Part shown: positions 1 through 13,266 of the stretch, one piece after another
Layout of the letters: each line of letters starts with the position of its first letter
Position numbering within the stretch: position 1 is the stretch's first letter
Assembly: GCA_020344055.1 (NCBI GenBank)
Contig: CP070813.1
Span: forward strand, 653,499-708,577
Direction of reading: 5' to 3'
DNA from: Candidatus Zixiibacteriota bacterium
Lineage (GTDB): Bacteria > Zixibacteria > MSB-5A5 > UBA10806
Length of the DNA stretch: 55,079 nt
Made by a program: the position numbers and the translations under genes
Notes under the pieces: model-generated
What the model saw: only the letters and a program-made list of their open reading frames with translations
What the model was told of the DNA's origin: nothing
The model's database searches: none

Positions 1-402
1 ATCGCCGATCCCTTAGTCGAAGCCATAGCCGATTCCACCGGCGGTGCGATTAATCTCTACAATGAGATAAGTAAATATATGGGTCTTGAGCCTTGTCCGT
101 TTGCTCCTGGTGGATTGCTTCAAATGTACGATCCCATAGCCGATGTAGTTAAATTTGAAGTCGTCTCTACCGAAGACGGGGCAGGAGTTGATATTTATGA
201 TGAAATCGGCAAGTATATGGGATTAGATCCTTCACCATTCACGCCCGGCGGCCTTCTCAGAATGTATGATCCGGTGGCCGATGCCGTAAAGTTTGAAGTA
301 AGTTCTACAGAGGATGGGGCCGGTATCGATATTTATGACGAAATAGGCAAGTATATGGGCTTCGATCCAACACCTTTTACACCGGGCGGATATTTATATA
401 TG
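1..402 (+). repeat. 138-bp (46-aa) in-frame tandem repeat
   Basis: The codon for the Met of YMG recurs at 79, 217 and 355, exactly 138 bp apart, with a partial unit upstream of 79. Each unit reads as two about 23-residue half-units, one with PSPFTPGGLLRMYDP and one with GAGIDIYDEIGKYMG. Related single or double units occur in the 1223 gene (about 2500-2710) and once in the 3477 gene (about 5515-5610). Confidence 0.9.
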
Positions 403-1077
403 ATCGAATCCACCGGTTTTGTCATTGATACCAATATAACGATGGGATCGGACGGTTACATTCAGGTAGAAAATGGCGTTACCATCGGACCCAATACCAA
501 TACCGGAGAACATACCCTGGTTATGGGCGAAGGAACCAGCGCATCCGGCAATAACTCCTTCGCGGGCGGCAGACATGCGCAGGCCGATCATAATAACAGT
601 TTTGTCTGGTCCGATCTACCCATCGGACCGTCAGTAGTACCCCTGCAGACCTCTTCCGATAATCAATTTCTGGTCAGGTCCGCGGGTGGAATCAAATTTT
701 ATACCAACGCCAATCTTACATCCGGCGTGGAGCTAACTCCCGGCTCCTCTTCATGGTCTTCAATAACAATTCTCGACGGCATCCGCAATCTGCGCCCGGT
801 CGACGGAGCTGATATACTGAACAAAATCGAACAACTTCCCATAAATCGTTACAGCTTCAAATCGGAAGACGAAAACGTCGAACATATCGGCCCTATGGCC
901 GATGATTTCCACAATCTTTTCGGCGTGGGAGTGGATAACCAGCATATCGATATGCTCGATCCTTCCGGTATCGCATTAGCCGGGATTAAAGAATTAATTA
1001 AGGAAAATAAACAGCTTAAAAATATTGTTAAGGAATTAAGAGATGAAATTGAAAAACTGAAAACCAAAACCAATTAA
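1..1077 (+). CDS. Fibre-like surface protein, 5' truncated by window edge
   Basis: The reading frame is open from base 1, so the true start lies upstream; an internal ATG at 79 is only inside the repeats. The visible part has three 46-residue repeats (cores YMGLDPSPFTPGG, MYDPVADAVKFEV, DIYDEIGK), then a YadA/Hia-head-like stretch (TIGPNTNTGEHTLVMGEG), a conserved region shared with the next gene (FYTNANLTSGVELTPG), an S74-like chaperone region (LRPVDGADILNKIEQLPINRYS) and a short C-terminal coiled coil (ELIKENKQLKNIVKELRDEIEKL). The order repeats-head-chaperone-coil is that of trimeric phage-tail or adhesin fibres. The SSRRWK-type cleavage motif seen in the 3477 gene is absent. It is a close paralogue of the 1223 gene. 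A surface fibre role is inferred from architecture; the ligand is unknown. Confidence 0.85.
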   Translation: MADPLVEAIADSTGGAINLYNEISKYMGLEPCPFAPGGLLQMYDPIADVVKFEVVSTEDGAGVDIYDEIGKYMGLDPSPFTPGGLLRMYDPVADAVKFEVSSTEDGAGIDIYDEIGKYMGFDPTPFTPGGYLYMIESTGFVIDTNITMGSDGYIQVENGVTIGPNTNTGEHTLVMGEGTSASGNNSFAGGRHAQADHNNSFVWSDLPIGPSVVPLQTSSDNQFLVRSAGGIKFYTNANLTSGVELTPGSSSWSSITILDGIRNLRPVDGADILNKIEQLPINRYSFKSEDENVEHIGPMADDFHNLFGVGVDNQHIDMLDPSGIALAGIKELIKENKQLKNIVKELRDEIEKLKTKTN

Positions 1078-1222: not shown

Positions 1223-3379
1223 ATGCGAAGCAAAGCTACAACCGTGATCCTGACAGCTTTGATTTTCGCAACCGTGACCTTAACAGCTTCAGCGCAAATC
1301 CCGCTGAACATGAGCTACCAGGCCCGCCTGGCCGACAACGCCGGCAACCCGGTGCCCGACAGCAGCTACGATATGGAATTCCGATTCTACTCGGATTCCA
1401 CCGGCGGCGTTCCGGTCTGGACCGAGTCGTTTTTCGATGTCTTCACCGATAACGGCTTTTTTGATGTTTTTCTCGAGATGGATCTCGATAATCTGGATGG
1501 GCCGCTCTTCTTGGAGATAATGGTAGGCGACGAAATCATGTCACCGCGAGCCCCGTTGGCATCAGTGCCCTTCAGCGCCATCTCGCAAAGAGTGCAGGGG
1601 GATATCATTACCAATGAAGGGTATATGGTGTTAACAAACGCTGACGGCGATTCATCTTTCAGCATTCTATCGGACGCTGGAACTGATATTATCAGCGTCA
1701 AGATGGCGCACCCGCCCGAACAACCCGCTTTCGAATTGATTTCTAACGGTGTCGATGACCAAATAAGTATGAAAATGGCTCATCCCCCGGAAGGACCGGG
1801 GATTAATGTTATGGCTGATGGTATAGCCAATTCTATTAATTTCAGATTGATCCATCCCCCGGAAATGCCTTCAATTGAAATGTCTGCCGATGCCGCACAG
1901 TCATCTTTTAAAATGATGGACCCCACCGATGAAAAAGTAGGCTTTGACGTATTCGTCGGGGGCGAGGGAAACTCCATGAAACTTATGGATCCCTCTGATG
2001 AAATAGTGCCTCTGGTAGAGCTATCGGCCCTTAACACCGAAAGTTCTATGAAGTTAATGGATCCCACCGATGAAAAGGTGGGCTTCGACGTATTTATAGG
2101 GGCGGCAGGAAATTCTCTGAAACTTATAGACCCCGATAATGATAGCGTATCCGCAATTGAAATGTCCGCCGACGCGGCCAAGTCATCATTCAAAATGATG
2201 GATCCCGGCGATGAGAAGGTGGGCTTTGACGTATTCGTCGGAGGAGAAGGTAACTCCATGAAACTTATGGATCCTACTGATGAAATAGTGCCTTTGGTAG
2301 AGATGAATGGCGGAATCGGCGGGGAAGCTAACTTTAGAATGTTCAATCCCCAGCCCGAACCGCCTGAACCGCTTCTGGAAATGAATACAGATCAATACGG
2401 CGCCACTTTCGCCATGACCGCCCCGCAGGCTGCCGGCCCCGGTGATCAGATCACCGATCCCCTTTTCGAGGTTACGGCCGATTCCACAGGCGGTGCCATT
2501 AATTTATACGATAATATCGGTAGATACATGGGCCTTGAGCCCATGCCGTTTACTCCCGGCGGCATATTTAGAATGTATAGTCCCCTATCGGATGCCGTGA
2601 AATTTGAAGTCTATACTAGCGCGGATGGGGGTGGCGTCGGTCTATATGACGATATAGGAAAATACATGGGCTTTGAGCCCAGCCCCTTCGTTCCCGGCGG
2701 TTTTGTTTACCTGATCGATCCCTCTTCCGGAGATACGACCATATCTTTAGATACGCATGGTTATATCCAGGTCGATAAAGGTATCACTTTGGGCCCCAAC
2801 ACGAATAACGGAGAACGTAATCTGGTCGCCGGTACAGGCAATACAGTTAACGGCTGGTATAATGTTGTGAGCGGATACGGTTCTCAGTGCGATTACAACA
2901 ATAACTTCATATGGTCCGATTACCCGGTCGGGCCGTCAGTAATACCGGTGCAGTCATCAGGCAACAACCAGTTCCTGGTCAGGGCCACCGGTGCGGTAAA
3001 ATTCTATACCAACGCCAATCTCACATCCGGCGTTCAACTGACCCCTGGCGCCACCTCCTGGTCTTCCATAACGACTCTCGACGGCGTGCGCAACCTCCGG
3101 CCTGTTGACGGAGGGGAGATATTAAATAAAATCGAACAGCTTCCTATCAACCGCTACAGCTACAAATCTGAGGATGAGTCCGTCGAGCATGTCGGCCCCA
3201 TGGCCTACGATTTTCACAATCAGTTTGGAATCGGCGTTGATGACGAACATATCTCCGCTCAGGATCAATCCGGTATCGCCTTAGCGGGAATGAAAGAAAT
3301 GATAAATATTATAAACGAACTTAAAGACAAAAACGCCGAACTCGAAAGGAGGATCGCCGAACTGGAGGGAACACGGTAG
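1223..3379 (+). CDS. Modular fibre-like surface protein with S74-like C-terminus
   Basis: 718 aa with a strong SD (GGGAGGAAG) before ATG. Domain order: Sec signal peptide (about 1-25, ending TASA-Q); an N-terminal domain of about 100 aa with the MSYQARLADNAGNPVPD signature shared with the 3477 and 7046 proteins; about 160-400, repeats of 23-25 aa (MKMAHPPEGP, MKLMDPTDEKVGFDVF, FRMFNPQPEPPEP); about 425-490, two units like the 46-aa repeats of the upstream gene; a YadA-head-like stretch (GITLGPNTNNGERNLVAG); an S74-like chaperone region with NKIEQLPINRYSYK; and a coiled-coil tail ending ELERRIAELEG. It was probably exported by Sec and displayed or assembled as a trimer, by analogy with S74-terminated tail fibres. 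The autocleavage motif is not visible. Flanked on both sides by identical 46-bp palindromes, suggesting tandem duplication of gene plus spacer. Confidence 0.85.
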   Translation: MRSKATTVILTALIFATVTLTASAQIPLNMSYQARLADNAGNPVPDSSYDMEFRFYSDSTGGVPVWTESFFDVFTDNGFFDVFLEMDLDNLDGPLFLEIMVGDEIMSPRAPLASVPFSAISQRVQGDIITNEGYMVLTNADGDSSFSILSDAGTDIISVKMAHPPEQPAFELISNGVDDQISMKMAHPPEGPGINVMADGIANSINFRLIHPPEMPSIEMSADAAQSSFKMMDPTDEKVGFDVFVGGEGNSMKLMDPSDEIVPLVELSALNTESSMKLMDPTDEKVGFDVFIGAAGNSLKLIDPDNDSVSAIEMSADAAKSSFKMMDPGDEKVGFDVFVGGEGNSMKLMDPTDEIVPLVEMNGGIGGEANFRMFNPQPEPPEPLLEMNTDQYGATFAMTAPQAAGPGDQITDPLFEVTADSTGGAINLYDNIGRYMGLEPMPFTPGGIFRMYSPLSDAVKFEVYTSADGGGVGLYDDIGKYMGFEPSPFVPGGFVYLIDPSSGDTTISLDTHGYIQVDKGITLGPNTNNGERNLVAGTGNTVNGWYNVVSGYGSQCDYNNNFIWSDYPVGPSVIPVQSSGNNQFLVRATGAVKFYTNANLTSGVQLTPGATSWSSITTLDGVRNLRPVDGGEILNKIEQLPINRYSYKSEDESVEHVGPMAYDFHNQFGIGVDDEHISAQDQSGIALAGMKEMINIINELKDKNAELERRIAELEGTR
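1700..2310 (+). repeat. Alternating 69/72-bp (23/24-aa) in-frame repeats
   Basis: The Asp codon of the MxDP core falls at 1919, 1988, 2060, 2129, 2201 and 2270, giving spacings of 69, 72, 69, 72 and 69 bp, that is a 141-bp super-repeat. Looser units with MAHPPE cores precede it. Core features are an alternating hydrophobic/charged strand (S-x-K-L-M), a DP or HPP turn with following acid, and a second strand. Confidence 0.85.
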
Positions 3380-3382
3380 AAA

Positions 3383-3428
3383 ATGTAGGTCGGGTTCCGA
3401 CCCCGCTTTAGCGGGGGAGAAACCCGAC
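3383..3428. repeat. 46-bp double-hairpin intergenic repeat, copy 2
   Basis: Identical to 1091-1136 over all 46 bases, with the same outer (GTCGGGTT/AACCCGAC) and inner (CCCCGC/GCGGGG) arms. It starts 3 bp after the stop of the second fibre gene, as copy 1 lies just after the stop of the first. Confidence 0.8.
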
Positions 3429-3476: not shown

Positions 3477-6038
3477 ATGGGAAAGCGAAACTGCGTAATT
3501 GCGATGCTTGCTTCTTTGATCTTGCTTTTCGCAGGATTCGCGACAGCATCGACCGTAATCAACTATCAGGGTCTTTTGACCGACGCCTCCAGCAATCCCG
3601 TGCCGGATGATACCTACCAGATAATATTCAGCATCTGGGATGCTCCAACCCTCGGAAATCAACTCTGGACAGAGCCGCATCCCGCCGTACAGACAACAAA
3701 CGGCCATTTCAGCGTGGAGTTGGGAAGCATCGATCCCATCAACCTGGATGATCTCGGTTCCGCGGCATTATACCTGCAGATGCAGGTGGAAACAGAACCC
3801 CCCATGGATCCCCGTATACAATTGAACTGGGTACCCTATGGAGCAGTTTCCCAGAGAGTATTGGGCGATGTGGTAACCGACGAGGGCTCGTTGACTATCC
3901 AGTTGCCGGAATCCGAACAACTGCCATACATAAACATGAACGTCGATTCTGCGCAGGCCAACGTTATGTTATCGCCGGGTTATCCCGATGGTCCCGGGAT
4001 TAATATGGTGTTGACGGAGACACTGGAAGGCATGGGCGCGGAACTGACATTGCGGGGAGAGAATGGCAGTACAAACGTAGGAATGGGTGCCGGGCCCGGA
4101 GACAGCTTTTTTGATGTTATGTATACCATACCGCTTGCAGTGGATATGAGAGGTGTTGAGATTTTAGCCGACTCCTCTGATGCCAGCGTTTCTATCAAGC
4201 GCGAACTCCCTGATGCCGAACCGCCGTTTACGCTCTTTGAGGCTTCCGCGAACGATGCCATGACGCAGCTGAATATGAGAGGCCTGAGCCTTATGGATGG
4301 CCCTGCGGTAAACATGCAAGTTACACTCACAACAGAAGCCTATGATGCCGGCATGGCCTTTATCGGCGCGGAAGGCGGACCGACCCTGAAAGCCGGAGCC
4401 GATCCCGACTCCGCCGGGATAATAATTATTGGGGGAACGCCAACAGATGGCAACAAATCGATAAATTTGCAGGCCAATACTGGCGAGGCCGGGATAATAG
4501 TCATCGATTCACAGCCTACCGGCGAGGAAAAATCGATCAATATAGGAACCAGTACCGATGAGGCCGGGATAATAGTCATCGATTCCAAACCGACTGGCGA
4601 GGTCAAAACGGTCAATCTGGAAACCAGTACCGATAATGCCGGGATTATTATCATCGATTCCAAACCAACCGGCGAAGAGAAATCGATTAACCTGGAAACC
4701 GATATCAGTACTGCCGGGATAATAGTTATCGATTCACAGCCTACCGGCGAGGAAAAATCGGTCAATATAGGAACCAGTACTGATAATGCCGGGATAATTG
4801 TCATTGATTCAAAGCCCACGGGCGACAGCGCCATAGTCGAGATGACCGCAAATAACGGTGCCGATTTGACCATTAATTTCACCCAACCTCTAGATAATCA
4901 GGCCCATGGAGTGGGATTGGCCGCCAATTCCGGTCTGGCGGATGTTAACGTTTATTTCGCCGAACCCCTCGATGAGGGCAGACACGGCGTCCAGATTTTC
5001 TCCGACAGCACGGGCGGGAATATAAATGTTTATCAGGAACTGGCGGAAGGAGAAGAGATAGGTACTCCCATGTTTTCCGTCAGCGGATCGCCGGATACCG
5101 GCGTGAGCGCCAGGATTTTCAATCCTCTGTTGGAACCCCCCGGCCGCGATCCAATGATTGAGATGAGGACCGCACCTGGCAACAACGCCAGTTTCGTAAT
5201 GTTCCAGCCTCAACCCGAACCGCCCGGAAATCTACACGAGGCCATCATGATGGAGACCAGTTATAACGGCAGCAGAGCTCTCGGCGCAAGCGTCAAGATG
5301 TTCCAGCCACAGCCGGAACCCCCCGGAATTCCGGCCGCGATACAGATGGCCGCGCAGACAAACAATACATTTTTTGATGTTTTCAAATATACCCAGGATC
5401 CCATGGGTGGAATGGACAGCAGCGGAATGCATATGACCGCCGATTCCAGCGAAATTTCTATGGAGCTATTGCAGGGCGCCAATACCTGGGTGAAATTGTT
5501 CGCCAACGAGGACGGCGGAGGTATAAAATTTTTCGATGACGGTTCTGAATATATGGGCGTCGAACCCAGTCCCTTTTACAACGCCGGCGATATGAAAATG
5601 TATGATTCCACTCAAGCGACGTCCATCATTGTATCGTCGCTGGGCATGGTATCAATAGGTACGGGAGTGATGGGGAATATCCTCACAATTGCCCGTGGTG
5701 CCTCCACTTTTCCCATCGCCGACGCCTGGACATTGTATAGCTCGAGAAGATGGAAAAGAAAAATCGAGCCGATCGAGGGATCGCTGGATAAGGTTATGAA
5801 CCTGCGCGGTGTCTCCTTCGAATGGAAGGACAGCGGCAAGGAGGATATCGGCCTGATAGCCGAGGAAGTGGCGGAAGTTGTACCTCAAGTTGTCGCTTAC
5901 GAGGAAAACGGCGAGGACGCTCAATCGGTCGATTACGCCCGCCTGGTGGCGCTTTTGATAGAAGCTACAAAAGAGCAACAGAAAGAGATAGAGGAACTGA
6001 AGGCAGAAGTAGACGAACTGCGAGACAGAATTAGATGA
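3477..6038 (+). CDS. Large modular fibre-like surface protein with canonical S74 chaperone domain
   Basis: 853 aa from ATG 3477, chosen because AAGGAG at 3464-3469 is 7 nt upstream; a GTG at 3471 is too close to it. Signal peptide (about 1-24), then the N-terminal domain (INYQGLLTDASSNPVPDDTY) shared with the neighbours, a β-repeat shaft including six 25-aa units (AGIIVIDSQPTGEEKSINI), further units with FQPQPEPPG cores, one YMGVEPSPF unit, and a C-terminal S74 domain: SSRRWK (Ser755, Lys760), then LRGVSFEWK, DIGLIAEEVAEVVPQVV and a coiled coil. In characterised S74 proteins a Ser and a Lys five residues later catalyse self-cleavage that releases the chaperone after trimer folding, so this protein may self-process. 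Display on the cell surface is inferred. Confidence 0.88.
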   Translation: MGKRNCVIAMLASLILLFAGFATASTVINYQGLLTDASSNPVPDDTYQIIFSIWDAPTLGNQLWTEPHPAVQTTNGHFSVELGSIDPINLDDLGSAALYLQMQVETEPPMDPRIQLNWVPYGAVSQRVLGDVVTDEGSLTIQLPESEQLPYINMNVDSAQANVMLSPGYPDGPGINMVLTETLEGMGAELTLRGENGSTNVGMGAGPGDSFFDVMYTIPLAVDMRGVEILADSSDASVSIKRELPDAEPPFTLFEASANDAMTQLNMRGLSLMDGPAVNMQVTLTTEAYDAGMAFIGAEGGPTLKAGADPDSAGIIIIGGTPTDGNKSINLQANTGEAGIIVIDSQPTGEEKSINIGTSTDEAGIIVIDSKPTGEVKTVNLETSTDNAGIIIIDSKPTGEEKSINLETDISTAGIIVIDSQPTGEEKSVNIGTSTDNAGIIVIDSKPTGDSAIVEMTANNGADLTINFTQPLDNQAHGVGLAANSGLADVNVYFAEPLDEGRHGVQIFSDSTGGNINVYQELAEGEEIGTPMFSVSGSPDTGVSARIFNPLLEPPGRDPMIEMRTAPGNNASFVMFQPQPEPPGNLHEAIMMETSYNGSRALGASVKMFQPQPEPPGIPAAIQMAAQTNNTFFDVFKYTQDPMGGMDSSGMHMTADSSEISMELLQGANTWVKLFANEDGGGIKFFDDGSEYMGVEPSPFYNAGDMKMYDSTQATSIIVSSLGMVSIGTGVMGNILTIARGASTFPIADAWTLYSSRRWKRKIEPIEGSLDKVMNLRGVSFEWKDSGKEDIGLIAEEVAEVVPQVVAYEENGEDAQSVDYARLVALLIEATKEQQKEIEELKAEVDELRDRIR
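4413..4862 (+). repeat. Six 75-bp (25-aa) in-frame tandem repeats
   Basis: The GCCGGGAT motif starts at 4413, 4488, 4563, 4638, 4713 and 4788, exactly 75 bp apart. The units encode AGIIVIDSxPTGEEKSINx followed by TSTDx. The third-to-sixth units are more alike than the first, and the last diverges at its end, as expected of unequal exchange or slippage. Confidence 0.93.
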
Positions 6039-6108
6039 AAAAAACTTTGAAAAAATGTTTGCAAAATAGATCGAAATGTGTATTTTTAAAAAAGAGAGAG
6101 GAGAATAG

Positions 6109-6696
6109 ATGAAGATCATCAATATCGTACTCTTGATATTTTTGATGACATCGTTTGCCATAGCCCAGAATTACCAGATCGATTGGTACGTCATAGCCTC
6201 GGGCGGGGGAGAGATGTCATCGACCAACTACAGCGTCAACGGCACCGCCGGGCAGCCGATTACAGGGAGCTCATCATCGCCCAGTTACATCGTTGAATCG
6301 GGATACTGGGTAGGTGCCGGTGCACCAGCGGGATGCGATTATACGGTCGGCGATGTCAACGGCAGCGACAGCTATAACGGCCTCGATATCACCTATGGCG
6401 TCAACTACTTCAAGGGCGGTCCCGATCCCATGTGCCCGTACGGTTCCTGTCCTATTCCCCCCTGCGACGTTTTCTACTACTGCGGTGATGTTAACGCCAG
6501 CTGCAGCTACAACGGTCTGGATATAACCTACGGCGTAAACTATTTCAAAGGCGGCCCCGGACCGCTGCCCTGCGGCGATTGTCCCCCCAGCGGGTTGATA
6601 GTTACATCGGTACCGGGTGAAGTCATCAAATCCCCGGCTGTCTTAAATGTGAAGCCGAAAGTGAAGGTCAAAGAAAAAGAAGAACTGAAAAGATAA
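6109..6696 (+). CDS. Small secreted protein with two dockerin-like motifs
   Basis: 195 aa, preceded by GAGAGGAG. Signal peptide about 1-19 (ending FAIA-Q). The next about 55 residues form a conserved domain (IDWYVIASGGGEMSS, GTAGQPITGSS, YIVESGYWVGAG) found again at the start of the 8857 protein. Then two copies of a dockerin-like motif, GDVNGSDSYNGLDITYGV and GDVNASCSYNGLDITYGV, each ending YFKGG. The 12-residue loop D-V-N-x-[SA]-x-x-x-N-G-L-D places D/N/N/D at positions 1, 3, 9 and 12 of an EF-hand-like calcium loop; position 5, usually D, is S or A. Cys residues around each motif may form disulfides. A Lys/Glu-rich tail follows. It sits 70 bp after the S74 fibre gene and before a terminator. 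No cohesin is seen in the window, so its partner is unknown. Confidence 0.8.
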   Translation: MKIINIVLLIFLMTSFAIAQNYQIDWYVIASGGGEMSSTNYSVNGTAGQPITGSSSSPSYIVESGYWVGAGAPAGCDYTVGDVNGSDSYNGLDITYGVNYFKGGPDPMCPYGSCPIPPCDVFYYCGDVNASCSYNGLDITYGVNYFKGGPGPLPCGDCPPSGLIVTSVPGEVIKSPAVLNVKPKVKVKEKEELKR

Positions 6697-6725
6697 TAAA
6701 TCGCAGAATTCAGATTGTCTTTTTG

Positions 6726-6752
6726 AAAGGGATTGCGACAGGCAGTCCCTTT
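6726..6752 (+). terminator. Rho-independent-type terminator after fibre/dockerin cassette 1
   Basis: Arms AAAGGGATTGC and GCAGTCCCTTT pair over 11 bp (one G-T) with a 5-nt loop, followed by ATTTGTT. It lies 30 bp after the stop. Its sequence is nearly the same as the terminator at 9490. Confidence 0.75.
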
Positions 6753-7045
6753 ATTTGTTAATATAGACATTTTAATATCTTTTTTATTGACAATTTCTGC
6801 TGGTATTTTTAATTGGGTATTAGATTCTGCTTCTTTGATATTTGCACCTCAGGCATTAAATTGACCCGATAACTAAACTGGCTTCGTATTCCGGTTACGA
6901 ATATTCGGAAACAATTCATGCGTAAACGAAAGGAGGATGTCGAATATCTATCTTATTGATTTGTTGGTTGTCAGATACATCCCGAGATTTTTGCTGTTCA
7001 ATTTGACAACTTGAGCAAACTACCAAACCTAACTGAGGAGCGATA
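6753..7045. other. Intergenic region of about 290 bp, possible promoter
   Basis: AT-rich and without a convincing gene. A TTGACA at 6787-6792 with TAATTG 17 nt downstream could be a weak promoter for the 7046-9417 pair. An AAAGGAGG at about 6929-6936 directly abuts an ATG (25 codons), too close for normal initiation. The SD for the 7046 gene is TGAGGAG just upstream of its ATG. Confidence 0.4.
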
Positions 7046-8860
7046 ATGAGAAGTATATTCAGCACATCTGTAACTTGGATATTTATAATTCTGGGTGCAT
7101 CAGTCATGCTATCAACGTACCTGATGGCCGGAAGTCTGGGAAATAGCGGTGATGGCAATATTATTACTTCCGTCCCTCGCGATATGACATACCAGGGCAT
7201 CCTCAAAGACTCGGCCGGCGACCCGGTGACGGACACAACAGTTAACGCTACTTTCAGGATCTACGATGACGAATTTGCGGGTACCATGGAATGGAGCCAG
7301 GGGATGGCGATAACGACCGACGATGCGGGCGTTTTTGACGTGACTTTAGATAACCTCAACATTCCTTTTGATGAGGATTACTGGCTGGAAATACAGATTG
7401 ATACTGAACCTGGCCCCATGACGCCGCGGCAGAAGGTGACTCTCTCAGGGTACGCTGCCAGAACCGATACCAGCGATTATGCTCTTAATGCCGGCACCGA
7501 TTCCGACTGGATGATTTCCGGCAGTGACATGTACTCCGGCGTTTCCGGCAATGTTGGTATAGGAATAGACAGTCCAGTATACAAGCTTCATGTTATTGGC
7601 AACTTCAGGGCGAATACGGTTAATACCGGACAGGGAGATAATCAACTTTACGACATGAACCAGAATGTTACCACCAGCAGCAGCCCCACGTTTGCGACGG
7701 TTAATACCGGGCAGGGAAATAATGAACTTTATGCCATGAACCAGCACGTTCAAACCTCGGATAACCCCAGTTTTAATAATCTCAGTTTAAACAGGGCATA
7801 CATTTCGGATTACGGCTATGCTCTCGGCGGATTTCATGTCGGCGGTACTGCGGACCCCGGTACCGATAATCTGATCGTTGATGGCAATCTCGGCGTGGGG
7901 ACAACGCCTTCGGATATGCTCGATGTAAATGGTGACATAAGAGTCAGAGGGGCCGATATAAAAGACGCCGGAGGTACGACCAGGATATCATTATACGATG
8001 ACGGCAGTCTTCATCTCAAGGAAGACGGTGGTTCGACATCGCTTACGGTCGATACCAACGGCGAGGTCGGTATCGGCACAACCTCCCCCTCATACCCGCT
8101 TCATGTTAGCACTTCTGCAAGTCGGGCCGGTAATTTCACATCCAGTTACCCGAGTACTTCAAACCATACCGTTCACGCGGAAGTTACAGCGACAGGAAAT
8201 TATGACGCCAGAGCTGTTTACGGTAAGTCCACACCTGCGGACTACTACGGATTTGGTGGATATTTCGAAGGCGGCTATATGGGAGTACGCGGGATAGTAT
8301 CCGCAACTGGTAGCAATTTTTATTATGGCGTGCGCGGTTCTTCTACTGGCACAGGAGCAGGAACCAATTACGGTGTTTATGGTTATGGATACAGCTCTGC
8401 CGGAACCAGCTACGGCGTGTATTATTCAGGCGGTCTTGCCGGTACCGGTACCAAAAGCTGTATTGTGAAAACCTCTCAAGGCCCCACGCTTCTCTATTGC
8501 CAGGAATCCCCCGAAAACTGGTTTGAGGATTTCGGCGAAGGTCAACTGCAGAACGGCCGGGCACATATCGATCTTGACGCACTCTTTCTTGAAACGGTGA
8601 CCATAAACGACACTCATCCCATGAAGGTGTTCGTACAATTGGAGGGCGACTGCAATGGCGTTTATGTGTCCAAGGGATCAACAGGATTTGACGTAATCGA
8701 GCTGAATAAAGGTACAAGTAATGCTCCATTTTCCTATCGTGTCGTCGCCAAACGTCAGGGATTTGAGGATAGACGCCTTGATTACACCGCCGCCGGGGAA
8801 AATGATCCCTATCTTTACCCCGAAAAAGCCGCAGAATTCGATAAAAAGGAAACGCAATGA
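7046..8860 (+). CDS. Fibre-like surface protein, tail-fibre-type repeats
   Basis: 604 aa. N-terminal hydrophobic signal (about 8-30), then the same N-terminal domain as the upstream fibres (MTYQGILKDSAGDPVTD, followed by a strand-rich stretch ending DTEPGPMTPRQKV). The middle carries tail-fibre-like segments (NVGIGIDSPVYKLHVIG, VGIGTTSPSYPLHVS), two NTGQGxNxLYxMNQ units, and Gly/Ser/Tyr-rich strands (YYGVRGSSTGTGAGTNYGVYG). The C-terminal about 130 aa (ENWFEDFGEGQLQNGRAHIDLDALF, in part) form a compact domain unlike S74; no SSRRWK motif is present. It overlaps the next gene by 4 bp (ATGA), so the two are probably translationally coupled. Surface display is inferred; binding target unknown. 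Confidence 0.83.
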   Translation: MRSIFSTSVTWIFIILGASVMLSTYLMAGSLGNSGDGNIITSVPRDMTYQGILKDSAGDPVTDTTVNATFRIYDDEFAGTMEWSQGMAITTDDAGVFDVTLDNLNIPFDEDYWLEIQIDTEPGPMTPRQKVTLSGYAARTDTSDYALNAGTDSDWMISGSDMYSGVSGNVGIGIDSPVYKLHVIGNFRANTVNTGQGDNQLYDMNQNVTTSSSPTFATVNTGQGNNELYAMNQHVQTSDNPSFNNLSLNRAYISDYGYALGGFHVGGTADPGTDNLIVDGNLGVGTTPSDMLDVNGDIRVRGADIKDAGGTTRISLYDDGSLHLKEDGGSTSLTVDTNGEVGIGTTSPSYPLHVSTSASRAGNFTSSYPSTSNHTVHAEVTATGNYDARAVYGKSTPADYYGFGGYFEGGYMGVRGIVSATGSNFYYGVRGSSTGTGAGTNYGVYGYGYSSAGTSYGVYYSGGLAGTGTKSCIVKTSQGPTLLYCQESPENWFEDFGEGQLQNGRAHIDLDALFLETVTINDTHPMKVFVQLEGDCNGVYVSKGSTGFDVIELNKGTSNAPFSYRVVAKRQGFEDRRLDYTAAGENDPYLYPEKAAEFDKKETQ

Positions 8861-9417
8861 TGGGGGCTGATATGACTATCTTAAGGATATTGATTGCGTT
8901 TATTCTACTATCGTCGATAGCTTACGCCCAGAATTTCGAGATCGACTGGTATGTTATGGCCTCCGGCGGGGGAGAGATGTCATCAACTGGTTTCTCTATC
9001 AATGGCACTATCGGTCAACCGATAATCGGCGAATCCTCGTCGGCAGGCTACACCATTGAATCCGGTTTCTGGGTGGGAGCCGGCGGTATCGCATGTGAGT
9101 ATGCAGTCGGCGACGTTAACTGGAGCGGCAGTTTCAACGGCCTCGATATCACCTATGGAGTGGCGTATCTGAAAGGCGGCAATCCTCCTTTATGCGAACC
9201 ATGCGCCTTATGCCCCGATTGGTATTATTGCGGCGATGTTAACGCCAGCTGCTCCTACAATGGACTTGATATTACCTATGGAGTAAGTTACCTCAAAGGC
9301 GGCCCGGCTCTCATGCCCTGCGACGACTGCCCGCCTGCCGGCTGGACCGTCGCCTCTACGCCCGGCAGGATCGCGAAACCGGCTTCGATTTTAAACGTGA
9401 GACAAAAACCTCGATAA
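8857..9417 (+). CDS. Small secreted protein with two dockerin-like motifs
   Basis: 186 aa; paralogue of the 6109 protein with the same layout. Signal peptide (to about residue 24, ending IAYA-Q), domain with IDWYVMASGGGEMSS and GTIGQPIIGESS, then GDVNWSGSFNGLDITYGV and GDVNASCSYNGLDITYGV, each followed by YLKGG. The ATG overlaps the stop of the fibre-like gene; an AAAGGA precedes it at normal spacing, and a further ATG at 8860 is equally possible. The basic tail seen in the paralogue is shorter. As in the first cassette, the dockerin-like gene follows a fibre gene and precedes a terminator. Confidence 0.82.
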   Translation: MMGADMTILRILIAFILLSSIAYAQNFEIDWYVMASGGGEMSSTGFSINGTIGQPIIGESSSAGYTIESGFWVGAGGIACEYAVGDVNWSGSFNGLDITYGVAYLKGGNPPLCEPCALCPDWYYCGDVNASCSYNGLDITYGVSYLKGGPALMPCDDCPPAGWTVASTPGRIAKPASILNVRQKPR

Positions 9418-9489
9418 CCGGAAATGCAAATAGCCACGAGAAACACCGATAATAGATTGTAAATGCGGATTTCAGGTATGTTTCTTTTT

Positions 9490-9516
9490 AAAGGGACTGC
9501 GACGCGCAGTCCCTTT
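9490..9516 (+). terminator. Rho-independent terminator after fibre/dockerin cassette 2
   Basis: Perfect 12-bp stem AAAGGGACTGCG / CGCAGTCCCTTT with a 3-nt loop, followed by TTT. It is the paralogous counterpart of the 6726 terminator. It faces a minus-strand gene ending at 9548 and may act for both. Confidence 0.88.
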
Positions 9517-10369: not shown

Positions 10370-10575
10370 GTTCCCTCCCTTTTAATCAGGGTACCTATAT
10401 ATAAAGCAAAACAAATCTGATCCATTAATCAATCCATTTTTTTATATAATTCGTATTATATCAACCGAATCGGGGAAAGCCCATTTTGCTTGATTTTTCG
10501 TGAATTATTATTATTTTTTAAATGTGTTCGCGTTAAATTCTATCCCCGCTCGGCTCATGGATGGGAAATAGGGCG

Positions 10576-13266
10576 ATGAAACGCCTTCGGCGCATCACCG
10601 TTACATTATCCCTGTTCCTGCTTATTATTTCCATTAACGGGAAAACCCGGGAATACAATATCGTCGATTCCTGGAACTTCTCCAGCAGAATCCTGACCAA
10701 CGAAACCATAGAGGAGATGATCGATTCGGTTTCGGCAGATATCATATTGGCCAATGTCGATACCCTGGCGGGCTTCTATACCCGCCATACCAACTCCGAT
10801 ACCATATCCTCAATTATCGGCGTAGGGGCCGCCCGGCGCTGGGTCTATGATAAGTTTGATGCCTATGCCAACGATTCCGCTACTTATGATCTCCAGCCCG
10901 GTTACTTTACATTCAATGCTAACGTATGCGGAATTTACGGGGAACACCGCAATATGCTCGCCACTTTGCCCGGGACTCTTACTCCCGATCGACACTTTTT
11001 AACCATGGGGCATATCGATAGCCGCACCAACAACGTCTGCGACGCGACGTCGTTTTCCCCGTCCGCAAATGACGACGGAAGCGGTACCGCAATCGCTATG
11101 GAAATAGCGCGAATTATGAGCCGATATCCTTTTGAATCGACTGTCATAGTCATGGTTGTCACCGGCGAGGATCAGGGACTTTACGGCAGCACTGCCTACG
11201 CGCAATGGGCCCAGTCTCAAGCCATGTATATCGGCGCGGTCATCACCAACGACGTGGTGGGCAATATCGAGGGTTGCGAAAACCCGGCCTGCCCGCCCGG
11301 CGAACCGGTTATCGTAGACAGCACTTCAGTAAGGCATTTTTCGGGGACGCCGGAAACCGGGATTTCACGCCAGCTGACAAGATATATGAAATTGAAAGCT
11401 ATGGAATATTTACAGGGATTTACCGTTAATCTTATTCCGGCGCTGGATCGACCGGGCCGTTCCGGCGATCATGTGCCATTTTACAACCGCGGCTATGCCG
11501 CCGCCCGGTTCACGGAAGCTCACGAAAACGGTGACGGAAGCGGAAACAACGGCAGACAGCATAACGCCCACGATACCGTGTCCTATTACAATACCAATCC
11601 CGGCTATATGGCCAATATCGCCCGGTTAAATATCGCCGGAATAGCCAGCCTCGCCCTGGCACCCGCGCCGCCGGGCTACCTTCAGGCCGAGAATGCCGGT
11701 AACGGTACCAGCGTTGTCCTTACCTGGCCCAATACCCAGACAGAACCCGACTTCGCTGGCTATAGAATCGCTGTCCGTCCCCAGGGTGAGCTCTTTTACA
11801 CCGATGTTGTGGACGCCGGAAACGTAAACCAATTTATTCTGGATAGCCTTACCGAAGGCCAGCTCGTTTACCTGAGTATATCCGCATACGATTTGGACGA
11901 TAACGAATCGGTGTTCTCGGAGGAGATCTCCTTTACACCCTCCAGTATCCCCTCGGCCCCGGCCGGATTTGAAACCGAATCTCAACAAACCGGCATACAG
12001 CTTACCTGGATTCCAAATACTGAACTGGACATCGATGCCTACAATGTCTATCGTTATGCCCCCGGCCAGACCAATCCGCAATTAATACAGATTGTCCCGC
12101 ATCCCACCTCGTCTTATTTTGATAATACCGTTCTGCCGCATAATCTTTACACCTACAAAATAACCGCCATTGACTACCTTGAAAACGAAAGCGTGTTTTC
12201 GGAACCCGGTTACGGGCAGCTCGCTACCCATGATCTCGGGATATTGCTAATTGACGGCACAATAGACGGTTCAGGTGGGCCACTTCAACCAACGGATGAA
12301 GAGGTTGACGATTATTACGCGACCATAGTCGAGGTTTTCAATGTCGGCGGAAACTGGGATGTCGCCGACAGTACCCTCGTCGATGTTTTAATTCAGGACG
12401 CTCATCTTGCCCCGTTTTCGGTCGCGTTCTATCACAGCGATAGGGTAAACGCTTCCCATATTCAAGATACAACGGCATTAAAGAAATACCTCGATAACGG
12501 GGGCAAGCTCTTATTAAGCGGCTGGAATCTGGCGGGCAGCTTCGCCGGGGTGGTCGATACTTTCCATACTTTTCCTCACGGCAGCTTTTTCAGGGAGTAT
12601 ATTAAAACCGATTCCCTGGGTGTGTCTCGGCCCGCCAATCAGGATTTCATCAGCGCGCCGTCGCTGCTCCCGTCATTCTATCCCGATCTGACCGTCGATA
12701 GCGTGAAAGTGCCGATATTCGACCATCATCTATTTAAAATGGACGCCTTATTAAGCCCGCTGGTCGATGAACCTGTCACCGAAAGGCTTTACACCTACAA
12801 TTCGTCCTTCGGTGGGAGTTTCAGGTTGCATGGCGAACCGGTCGGCTTCAGATATCTGGGCCAGGATTTTGGCATAATCGTATTTGACGTTCCCCTGTTT
12901 TTCCTAAACCAGCAGCCGGCCATATCGGGCGCAAGACAGGCCCTGTTGGATCTGGGCGAAGCATACGTAGGTGTTTATGATGATGATCAATTGGATACCC
13001 CTACCGCAAACGTCATTCTCAACGCCTACCCGAATCCTTTTAATTCAAGCGTCACAATTGCTTACGAGGCTTCTGCCAATACCTCGATAAATATATCGAT
13101 ATATAATCTCCTGGGGCAGGAAATCGAGGTTCTGGAGGCGGGTGTTACCCGACCGGGCCAGCATCGGTTGATCTGGCGGGCAGATAATTATCCTTCCGGC
13201 ATCTACTTTTGCAGATTGAGCGTAAAAGGCGGTTCCGAGACGATCAGGTTGATACTGTTAAAGTAG
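10576..13266 (+). CDS. Secreted M28-family metallopeptidase with FN3 domains and T9SS-type tail
   Basis: 896 aa from ATG 10576; an ATG at 10561 would add five residues before the signal peptide. The M28 zinc peptidase domain spans about 45-360. The metal/catalytic set is visible: His146 (MGHIDSR), Asp166 (ANDDGSG), Glu198-Asp199 (TGEDQGLYGS), Asp226 (NDVVGN), His332 (NAHDT). The second acidic residue of the usual GEE is Asp. Two FN3 domains follow (VVLTWPNTQTEPDFAGYRI; IQLTWIPNTELDIDAYNVYR), then about 240 aa with a possible α/β fold (LGILLIDG, LKKYLDNGGKLLLSGWN), then a C-terminal sorting domain (AYPNPFNSSVTI, ISIYNLLGQEI, YPSGIYFCRL). That tail is typical of T9SS cargo. It probably cleaves N-terminal residues or dipeptides outside the cell. 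Confidence 0.88.
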   Translation: MKRLRRITVTLSLFLLIISINGKTREYNIVDSWNFSSRILTNETIEEMIDSVSADIILANVDTLAGFYTRHTNSDTISSIIGVGAARRWVYDKFDAYANDSATYDLQPGYFTFNANVCGIYGEHRNMLATLPGTLTPDRHFLTMGHIDSRTNNVCDATSFSPSANDDGSGTAIAMEIARIMSRYPFESTVIVMVVTGEDQGLYGSTAYAQWAQSQAMYIGAVITNDVVGNIEGCENPACPPGEPVIVDSTSVRHFSGTPETGISRQLTRYMKLKAMEYLQGFTVNLIPALDRPGRSGDHVPFYNRGYAAARFTEAHENGDGSGNNGRQHNAHDTVSYYNTNPGYMANIARLNIAGIASLALAPAPPGYLQAENAGNGTSVVLTWPNTQTEPDFAGYRIAVRPQGELFYTDVVDAGNVNQFILDSLTEGQLVYLSISAYDLDDNESVFSEEISFTPSSIPSAPAGFETESQQTGIQLTWIPNTELDIDAYNVYRYAPGQTNPQLIQIVPHPTSSYFDNTVLPHNLYTYKITAIDYLENESVFSEPGYGQLATHDLGILLIDGTIDGSGGPLQPTDEEVDDYYATIVEVFNVGGNWDVADSTLVDVLIQDAHLAPFSVAFYHSDRVNASHIQDTTALKKYLDNGGKLLLSGWNLAGSFAGVVDTFHTFPHGSFFREYIKTDSLGVSRPANQDFISAPSLLPSFYPDLTVDSVKVPIFDHHLFKMDALLSPLVDEPVTERLYTYNSSFGGSFRLHGEPVGFRYLGQDFGIIVFDVPLFFLNQQPAISGARQALLDLGEAYVGVYDDDQLDTPTANVILNAYPNPFNSSVTIAYEASANTSINISIYNLLGQEIEVLEAGVTRPGQHRLIWRADNYPSGIYFCRLSVKGGSETIRLILLK

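Follow-up and report, generated by a model that had tools for sequence, protein, structure and literature searches.

Many uncultured bacteria and archaea have surface proteins that resemble tail fibres, and the way in which such fibres are attached to the cell is addressed here. In choice-of-anchor proteins, a concept of NCBIfam, one domain is found with alternative surface-attachment tails, and in phages the adhesins of the fibre tip are encoded just after the fibre gene. The MAT fibres of Bdellovibrio bacteriovorus, the best-studied case, have been divided into S74 and non-S74 forms, and the surface element bound by their head awaits identification (PMC10769870). Cohesin-dockerin attachment is described for cellulosomes and for non-cellulosomal archaeal dockerins, e.g., in ANME (PMC9012536). 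Here we analyse a cassette in which a fibre gene is followed by a gene whose small product bears a C-terminal dockerin. Its parts, namely MAT-like heads, S74 fibres and dockerins, are all known already, and the cassette is not a categorically new system. No description of the cassette, of the conservation of the pair or of the exchange of its anchor was found in the open-access literature on dockerins, Zixibacteria, tail fibres and choice-of-anchor proteins, and the open-access literature likewise yielded no paper on Zixibacteria with type IX secretion.

The window, i.e., the whole stretch of 55,079 nucleotides analysed, belongs to a single-contig Zixiibacteriota genome of 3.83 Mb, and close relatives of the cassette are found in Candidatus Zixiibacteriota genomes. 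An earlier note on this DNA had described two units of the same layout (fibre gene, small-protein gene, near-identical hairpin terminator); both units are real and lie at the coordinates given for them, all on the + strand. In unit 1, the fibre gene (3477..6038, +, 853 aa) encodes successively a signal peptide, a YQG head (~3537-3869), a repeat shaft, a Peptidase_S74 chaperone (PF13884, E=1.3e-13) and a coiled coil; the C-terminus of this fibre matches phage tail-fibre PHROGs, and its head is related to the NCBIfam family Bdello_MAT_N. After a gap of 70 bp come the small-protein gene (6109..6696, +, 195 aa) and the hairpin terminator AAAGGGATTGCGACAGGCAGTCCCTTT (6726..6752, +, fold of -19.9 kcal/mol). 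The unit 2 fibre (7046..8860, +, 604 aa) has a signal peptide or transmembrane segment, a YQG head (~7169-7471), a shaft and, without S74, a C-terminal domain resembling the phage tail protein phrog_6616 (E=7e-16, residues 458-583). Its stop overlaps the start codon of the small-protein gene (8857..9417, +, 186 aa) in the ATGA at 8857-8860, which is the 4-bp overlap reported earlier, and an AAGGAA resembling a ribosome-binding site stands upstream of that start. The encoded protein, with a signal peptide, an N-domain and one dockerin module, is 62% identical to that of unit 1, and the unit closes with the hairpin AAAGGGACTGCGACGCGCAGTCCCTTT (9490..9516, +, -19.7 kcal/mol). Both terminators, each folding at about -20 kcal/mol, are indeed near-identical, and the pattern AAAGGGAYTGCG-N4-GCAGTCCCTTT, with at most 2 mismatches, has just 2 sites in the 3.83-Mb genome, both in the cassette. 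Two further fibre genes precede unit 1, which gives a fibre-fibre-fibre-anchor run with the putative anchor gene last. The first (79..1077, +, 332 aa) is a fibre gene remnant or a fibre masked at its 5' end, the reading frame continuing into masked sequence immediately before the window, and its product ends in a Peptidase_S74-like chaperone (PF13884, E=6e-7) with a coiled coil. The second (1223..3379, +, 718 aa) encodes a signal peptide, a YQG head (SYQARLADNAGNPVPD) that was matched in the search for such heads, a repetitive shaft and an S74-like C-terminus (PF13884, E=1e-5).

The window fibres start with the YQG head, of consensus P..I.YQG.LTD..G.PV.D....F.IY...GG...W....V....G.F...LG...P, for which a beta-sandwich is predicted with high confidence (pLDDT 90.5) and which has no significant match in the PDB, where weak matches to Ig-like sandwiches alone were obtained (best E=0.03). 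Bdello_MAT_N matches 61 of 69 YQG heads (best E=5e-12), under its curated cut-off; the window head scores 21.3 bits, the family cut-off being 60 bits. These matches point to a clear but distant homology of the YQG head with the head of the Bdellovibrio MAT fibres. The C-termini of the fibres differ, with Peptidase_S74 in unit 1 and another tail-protein-like domain in unit 2, so that the window fibres share the MAT-family trait of an S74 or alternative C-terminal tip. A phage origin of the cassette was rejected because the small protein has no relatives in viral contigs and the S74 and tail PHROG matches correspond to shared fibre domains; a plasmid search gave no match to the cassette.

The small protein is composed of a signal peptide, an N-domain of ~50 residues, a linker of ~10 residues and one complete dockerin. 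In unit 1, the signal peptide (MKIINIVLLIFLMTSFAIA, then QN) is followed by the N-domain (~6163-6321), the dockerin module (~6346-6600) and a basic tail. The N-domain has no Pfam name; its consensus is IDWYVIASGGG..STNY.VNGT.GQP..G.SSS..Y..ESG.W, and AF2 models it alone with low confidence (pLDDT about 47-60). The dockerin portion reaches a pLDDT of 88-96, and all 22 Foldseek matches of the small protein in the PDB are dockerin chains from cohesin-dockerin work, with target TM values mostly of 0.6-0.78, which establishes the dockerin fold. The whole-model E-values (0.03-2) are modest, as the other half of the protein is not dockerin. Two calcium loops of the D-x-N-x-[D/S] form typical of type I dockerins (PF00404), GDVNGSDSYNGLDITYGVNYFKGG and GDVNASCSYNGLDITYGVNYFKGG, are each followed by a helix (91-101 and 136-146 in the AF2 model). 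The window copies score 14.2 and 11.7 bits with PF00404, under the Pfam curated cut-off of 22.9, and 34 of 79 homologues of the small protein match this family at E<=0.01 (best 6.5e-15). The "two dockerin-like motifs" that the earlier note assigned to this protein are, from the AF2 and Foldseek results, the calcium-loop halves of one dockerin. Pfam and NCBIfam profile searches found no enzyme domain in the window fibres or small proteins, and no type IX sorting domain in the window small proteins.

Three copies of the N-domain are present in this genome, each directly behind a fibre gene; the third (G000:C1:3666954-3667499, - strand) lies 3.0 Mb away, and its fibre is partly masked. The same genome has over 90 dockerin-bearing genes. 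None of the 91 tabulated dockerin ORFs without N-domain is directly behind a YQG fibre, versus 3/3 with it (Fisher p=7e-6, or p=7e-4 with the masked third fibre left out). It is thus the N-domain (IDWYV/SGGG), not the dockerin, that marks the fibre partner, and the dockerin alone is ruled out as the fibre-associated part. The proposal that dockerin-like proteins pair with fibres is accordingly to be restricted to the carriers of the N-domain.

Across the phylum, the N-domain was found in 103 of 132 genomes. Adjacency was assessed in 15 well-assembled genomes (few contigs), whose 28 N-domain genes and 104 fibre heads were mapped separately from each other. For 19 of the 28 N-domain genes, the gene just upstream is a same-strand fibre, against 0.04 expected under uniform placement. 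This null ignores gene clustering, but an excess of nearly 500-fold is too large to depend on it. Among the neighbourhoods retrieved (about 100), 103 N-domain genes have an upstream ORF, and this ORF is a same-strand fibre in 70 cases and an opposite-strand fibre in 2; a fibre is immediately downstream in 12. Inspection by eye identified ~7 further upstream genes as fibres truncated at a contig end, by masking or by a frameshift, and about a quarter of the N-domain genes have no upstream fibre. The gaps between fibre and small-protein genes are mostly below 75 bp, and the genes often overlap. Seen from the fibre side, an adjacent N-domain partner is present for only 19 of the 104 fibres in the 15 genomes, so that a neighbouring partner is less necessary to the fibre than the fibre is to the small protein. 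In this genome, fibres that occur singly adjoin unrelated genes.

The pair is also found in Archaea, with the N-domain detected in 7 of 393 genomes drawn from the Halobacteriota. Of the ten archaeal N-domain genes, nine stand behind a YQG fibre, from which about 0-65 bp separate them; the exception, L238, is preceded by a non-fibre ORF. One contig binned as a Methanosarcinales archaeon (L106) carries the same pair, the small protein having a canonical archaeal-type dockerin. These archaeal genomes are metagenome bins, for which misbinning of single contigs is possible; misbinning of all seven is unlikely. That neighbours might be random in related genomes had been named beforehand as a possible refutation of the pairing, and they are random neither in the Zixiibacteriota nor in the Archaea. 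The existence of a fibre/small-protein pair is strongly supported by these data.

Co-transcription alone can hold gene pairs together for a while. The two genes could have no more than a promoter in common and encode distinct surface proteins that never touch, a reading with which the lack of an adjacent partner for most fibres would agree. We regard it as distinctly unlikely, given that the pair persists at very low similarity across the phylum and the Archaea while the C-terminal modules change, and that the dockerin genes devoid of N-domain are never directly behind fibres in this genome. Within families, the distances between N-domains and those between heads are correlated (r=0.34, 0 of 2000 permutations as high), which indicates that the pairs were inherited together; such a correlation can stem from shared ancestry alone.

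The C-terminal module of the small protein varies. A dockerin is detected by HMM on 99 of 108 small proteins of the Zixiibacteriota, and on a few more by eye. At L145, L153 and L200, also in Zixiibacteriota, a type IX secretion (T9SS type A) sorting domain (PF18962/TIGR04183) replaces it, and a fibre stands beside two of these three variants, upstream at L153 and downstream at L145, L200 being at a contig end. In the Archaea, the small proteins of L106 and L238 are of the dockerin type, those of L239-L243 have PEGA and/or DUF4082-like domains (by HMM for L239 and L240, by sequence likeness for the rest), and the L244 counterpart, of 551 aa, ends in an apparent transmembrane segment and a basic tail, as read from the sequence; the PEGA/DUF4082-like and L244 variants are each behind a YQG fibre. 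From these comparisons, the dockerin is an exchangeable tail of the small protein. A constant N-domain and fibre with a changing mode of attachment is what an anchor-adaptor would predict, and such an exchange fits poorly with a pair that exists for the sake of its dockerin. This pattern, the same partner with a choice of anchor, is in our opinion the strongest argument for a tethering of the fibre by the small protein.

The same observation bears on a different placement of the small protein, at the distal tip of the fibre as a cap, from which the dockerin would bind cohesins carried by secreted proteins or by other cells and so cross-link cells or build a matrix. The gene order is that of phage fibre/tip pairs, the N-domain is short and beta-rich, and many exported proteins of this genome bear dockerins, all of which would fit. 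However, in relatives the N-domain is joined to a transmembrane tail or to a T9SS sorting domain, and these would fix the protein to the cell that produces it and not to a distant tip, and we hold a tip position to be rather unlikely.

Candidate counterparts of the dockerin exist in the genome itself, which has 18 cohesin-domain hits, three of them on a single protein of 703 aa; cohesins are located at G000:C1:2692-2696 kb, 2464 kb and 3588 kb. Since most of the inspected cohesin proteins end in a T9SS-type sorting tail, they are predicted to lie outside the outer membrane.

These data lead us to favor, by a little, the hypothesis that the cassette is a two-gene surface-display module made of an exported fibre and a co-transcribed small anchor-adaptor, the latter probably fastening the fibre to the cell. 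The mechanism could be as follows: (i) the fibre, with its conserved YQG head, long and possibly trimeric shaft and variable tip with or without the S74 chaperone, would be co-transcribed with the adaptor, and both would be exported; (ii) the N-domain of the adaptor would hold the fibre, most simply at the conserved, cell-proximal head; (iii) the exchangeable C-terminal module would fix the complex to a surface fixture of the cell, the dockerin plugging, in this organism, into cohesins displayed on the outer surface and giving way in other organisms to a transmembrane tail, a type IX sorting domain or domains of another kind; and (iv) the tip of the fibre, putatively adhesive, would then be free to vary. 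The tight coupling of the genes, with short gaps and overlaps, is also what would be expected of an extracytoplasmic assembly factor or chaperone of the fibre, simply retained at the export site by its C-terminal module; phage fibres often require a chaperone encoded by a neighbour, and non-S74 fibres such as that of unit 2 have no built-in one. Such a function would nevertheless often be redundant, as S74 fibres with their own chaperone are partnered as well (unit 1 and 14 "YS" pairs), and we judge it unlikely. One ORF (L118) joins a fibre head, a broken N-domain and a dockerin in a head-to-anchor chimera; it lacks the first part of the N-domain and looks like a deletion product, and it was not retained as proof that the two domains work jointly.

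The relative G112 (G112:C208, L108/L109) has 5-6 cassettes in series, in which the fibres are different and the small proteins very similar, with identities of 56-85% between N-domains and of 18-65% between heads. N-domains so much more alike than the heads would be unlike a tight, specific co-adaptation, unless a feature shared by the heads is bound. A broader reading, which we put forward as possible though doubtful, is that a fibre head common to Bacteria and Archaea, distantly related to that of MATs, has its missing docking partner in the N-domain protein, i.e., that phage-like adhesive fibres are displayed by a general two-part system in which tip and anchor are both exchangeable. A partner gene kept next to the fibre throughout a phylum, and in archaea as well as in bacteria, with its anchors swapped, is a concrete candidate for the surface element. 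Heads and N-domains are each small enough to be expressed, and the question of how the fibre is held can be tested by pull-down.

Compared with the MAT fibres of B. bacteriovorus, the fibres of the cassette are alike in having a signal peptide, a beta-rich head of ~110-130 aa, a long shaft and a variable C-terminus with or without S74 (PMC10769870); they differ in that their head scores under the curated cut-off and in that they have a neighbouring candidate anchor, whereas MATs have no described anchor partner. The N-domain weakly resembles the first ~70 positions of the CPR-type pilus protein PamT (NCBIfam NF058579), which match in 29 of 79 relatives (best E=4e-9) and in the archaeal N-domains as well. 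The likeness is partial, the window match being of 25.8 bits over residues 6-66 only, with a cut-off of 240, and the remainder of PamT being absent. Unlike in the choice-of-anchor proteins, the domain joined to the alternative tails is here encoded by a gene of its own, linked to that of a neighbouring fibre. With cohesin-dockerin attachment, in cellulosomes as in the archaeal non-cellulosomal cases, the cassette shares a complete dockerin with a duplicated calcium loop, in a genome that also encodes cohesin proteins with likely surface-sorting tails. The dockerin is, however, carried by a small adaptor beside a fibre gene instead of being fused to an enzyme, which suggests that the cohesin-dockerin plug may be used outside cellulosomes for the mounting of fibres.

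At the syntenic place in the nearest relative (locus L107, G115:C1:2257500-2269500), a single cassette was found, in the order fibre, fibre, anchor, whereas its counterpart in the window has two, which indicates that the second window unit was gained or lost recently. The neighbours shared by both genomes at this place, a 274-aa gene and a gene for an M28-family peptidase, follow the cassette(s). The window copy of this peptidase (10561-13266) has a sorting tail of the type IX kind, matched by TIGR04183 at E=1.5e-11. Behind each of the first two window fibre genes lies one copy of a GC-rich palindromic element, GTAGGTCGGGTTCCGACCCCGCTTTAGCGGGGGAGAAACCCGAC (1093-1136 and 3385-3428), which resembles a REP-type intergenic repeat. 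Elsewhere in the relative's genome (G115:C1, about 3537 kb), a chimeric ORF (L118:5786-6502, minus strand), directly preceded by another fibre gene, combines a fibre head, a broken N-domain and a dockerin in one frame, apparently as the product of a deletion that fused two adjacent genes of a pair.

A DUF4082-like C-terminal domain is seemingly common to an archaeal NosD-like repeat protein (L240:12529-14001) and the adjacent anchor proteins, suggesting that in those archaea the domain is a surface-attachment module in its own right.

In the Zixiibacteriota genome, more than 90 exported proteins, many of them above 500 aa, bear a terminal dockerin module, and 18 cohesin-domain matches were found at loci other than those of the dockerin proteins. 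Three neighbouring cohesin-domain genes (L207, G000:C1:2692502-2696295, minus strand) account for five matches, three of them in a 703-aa protein; all three products end in a T9SS-type sorting tail, and the trio is a candidate surface scaffold. Taken together, the dockerin and cohesin sets point to a genome-wide cohesin-dockerin surface system outside cellulosomes.
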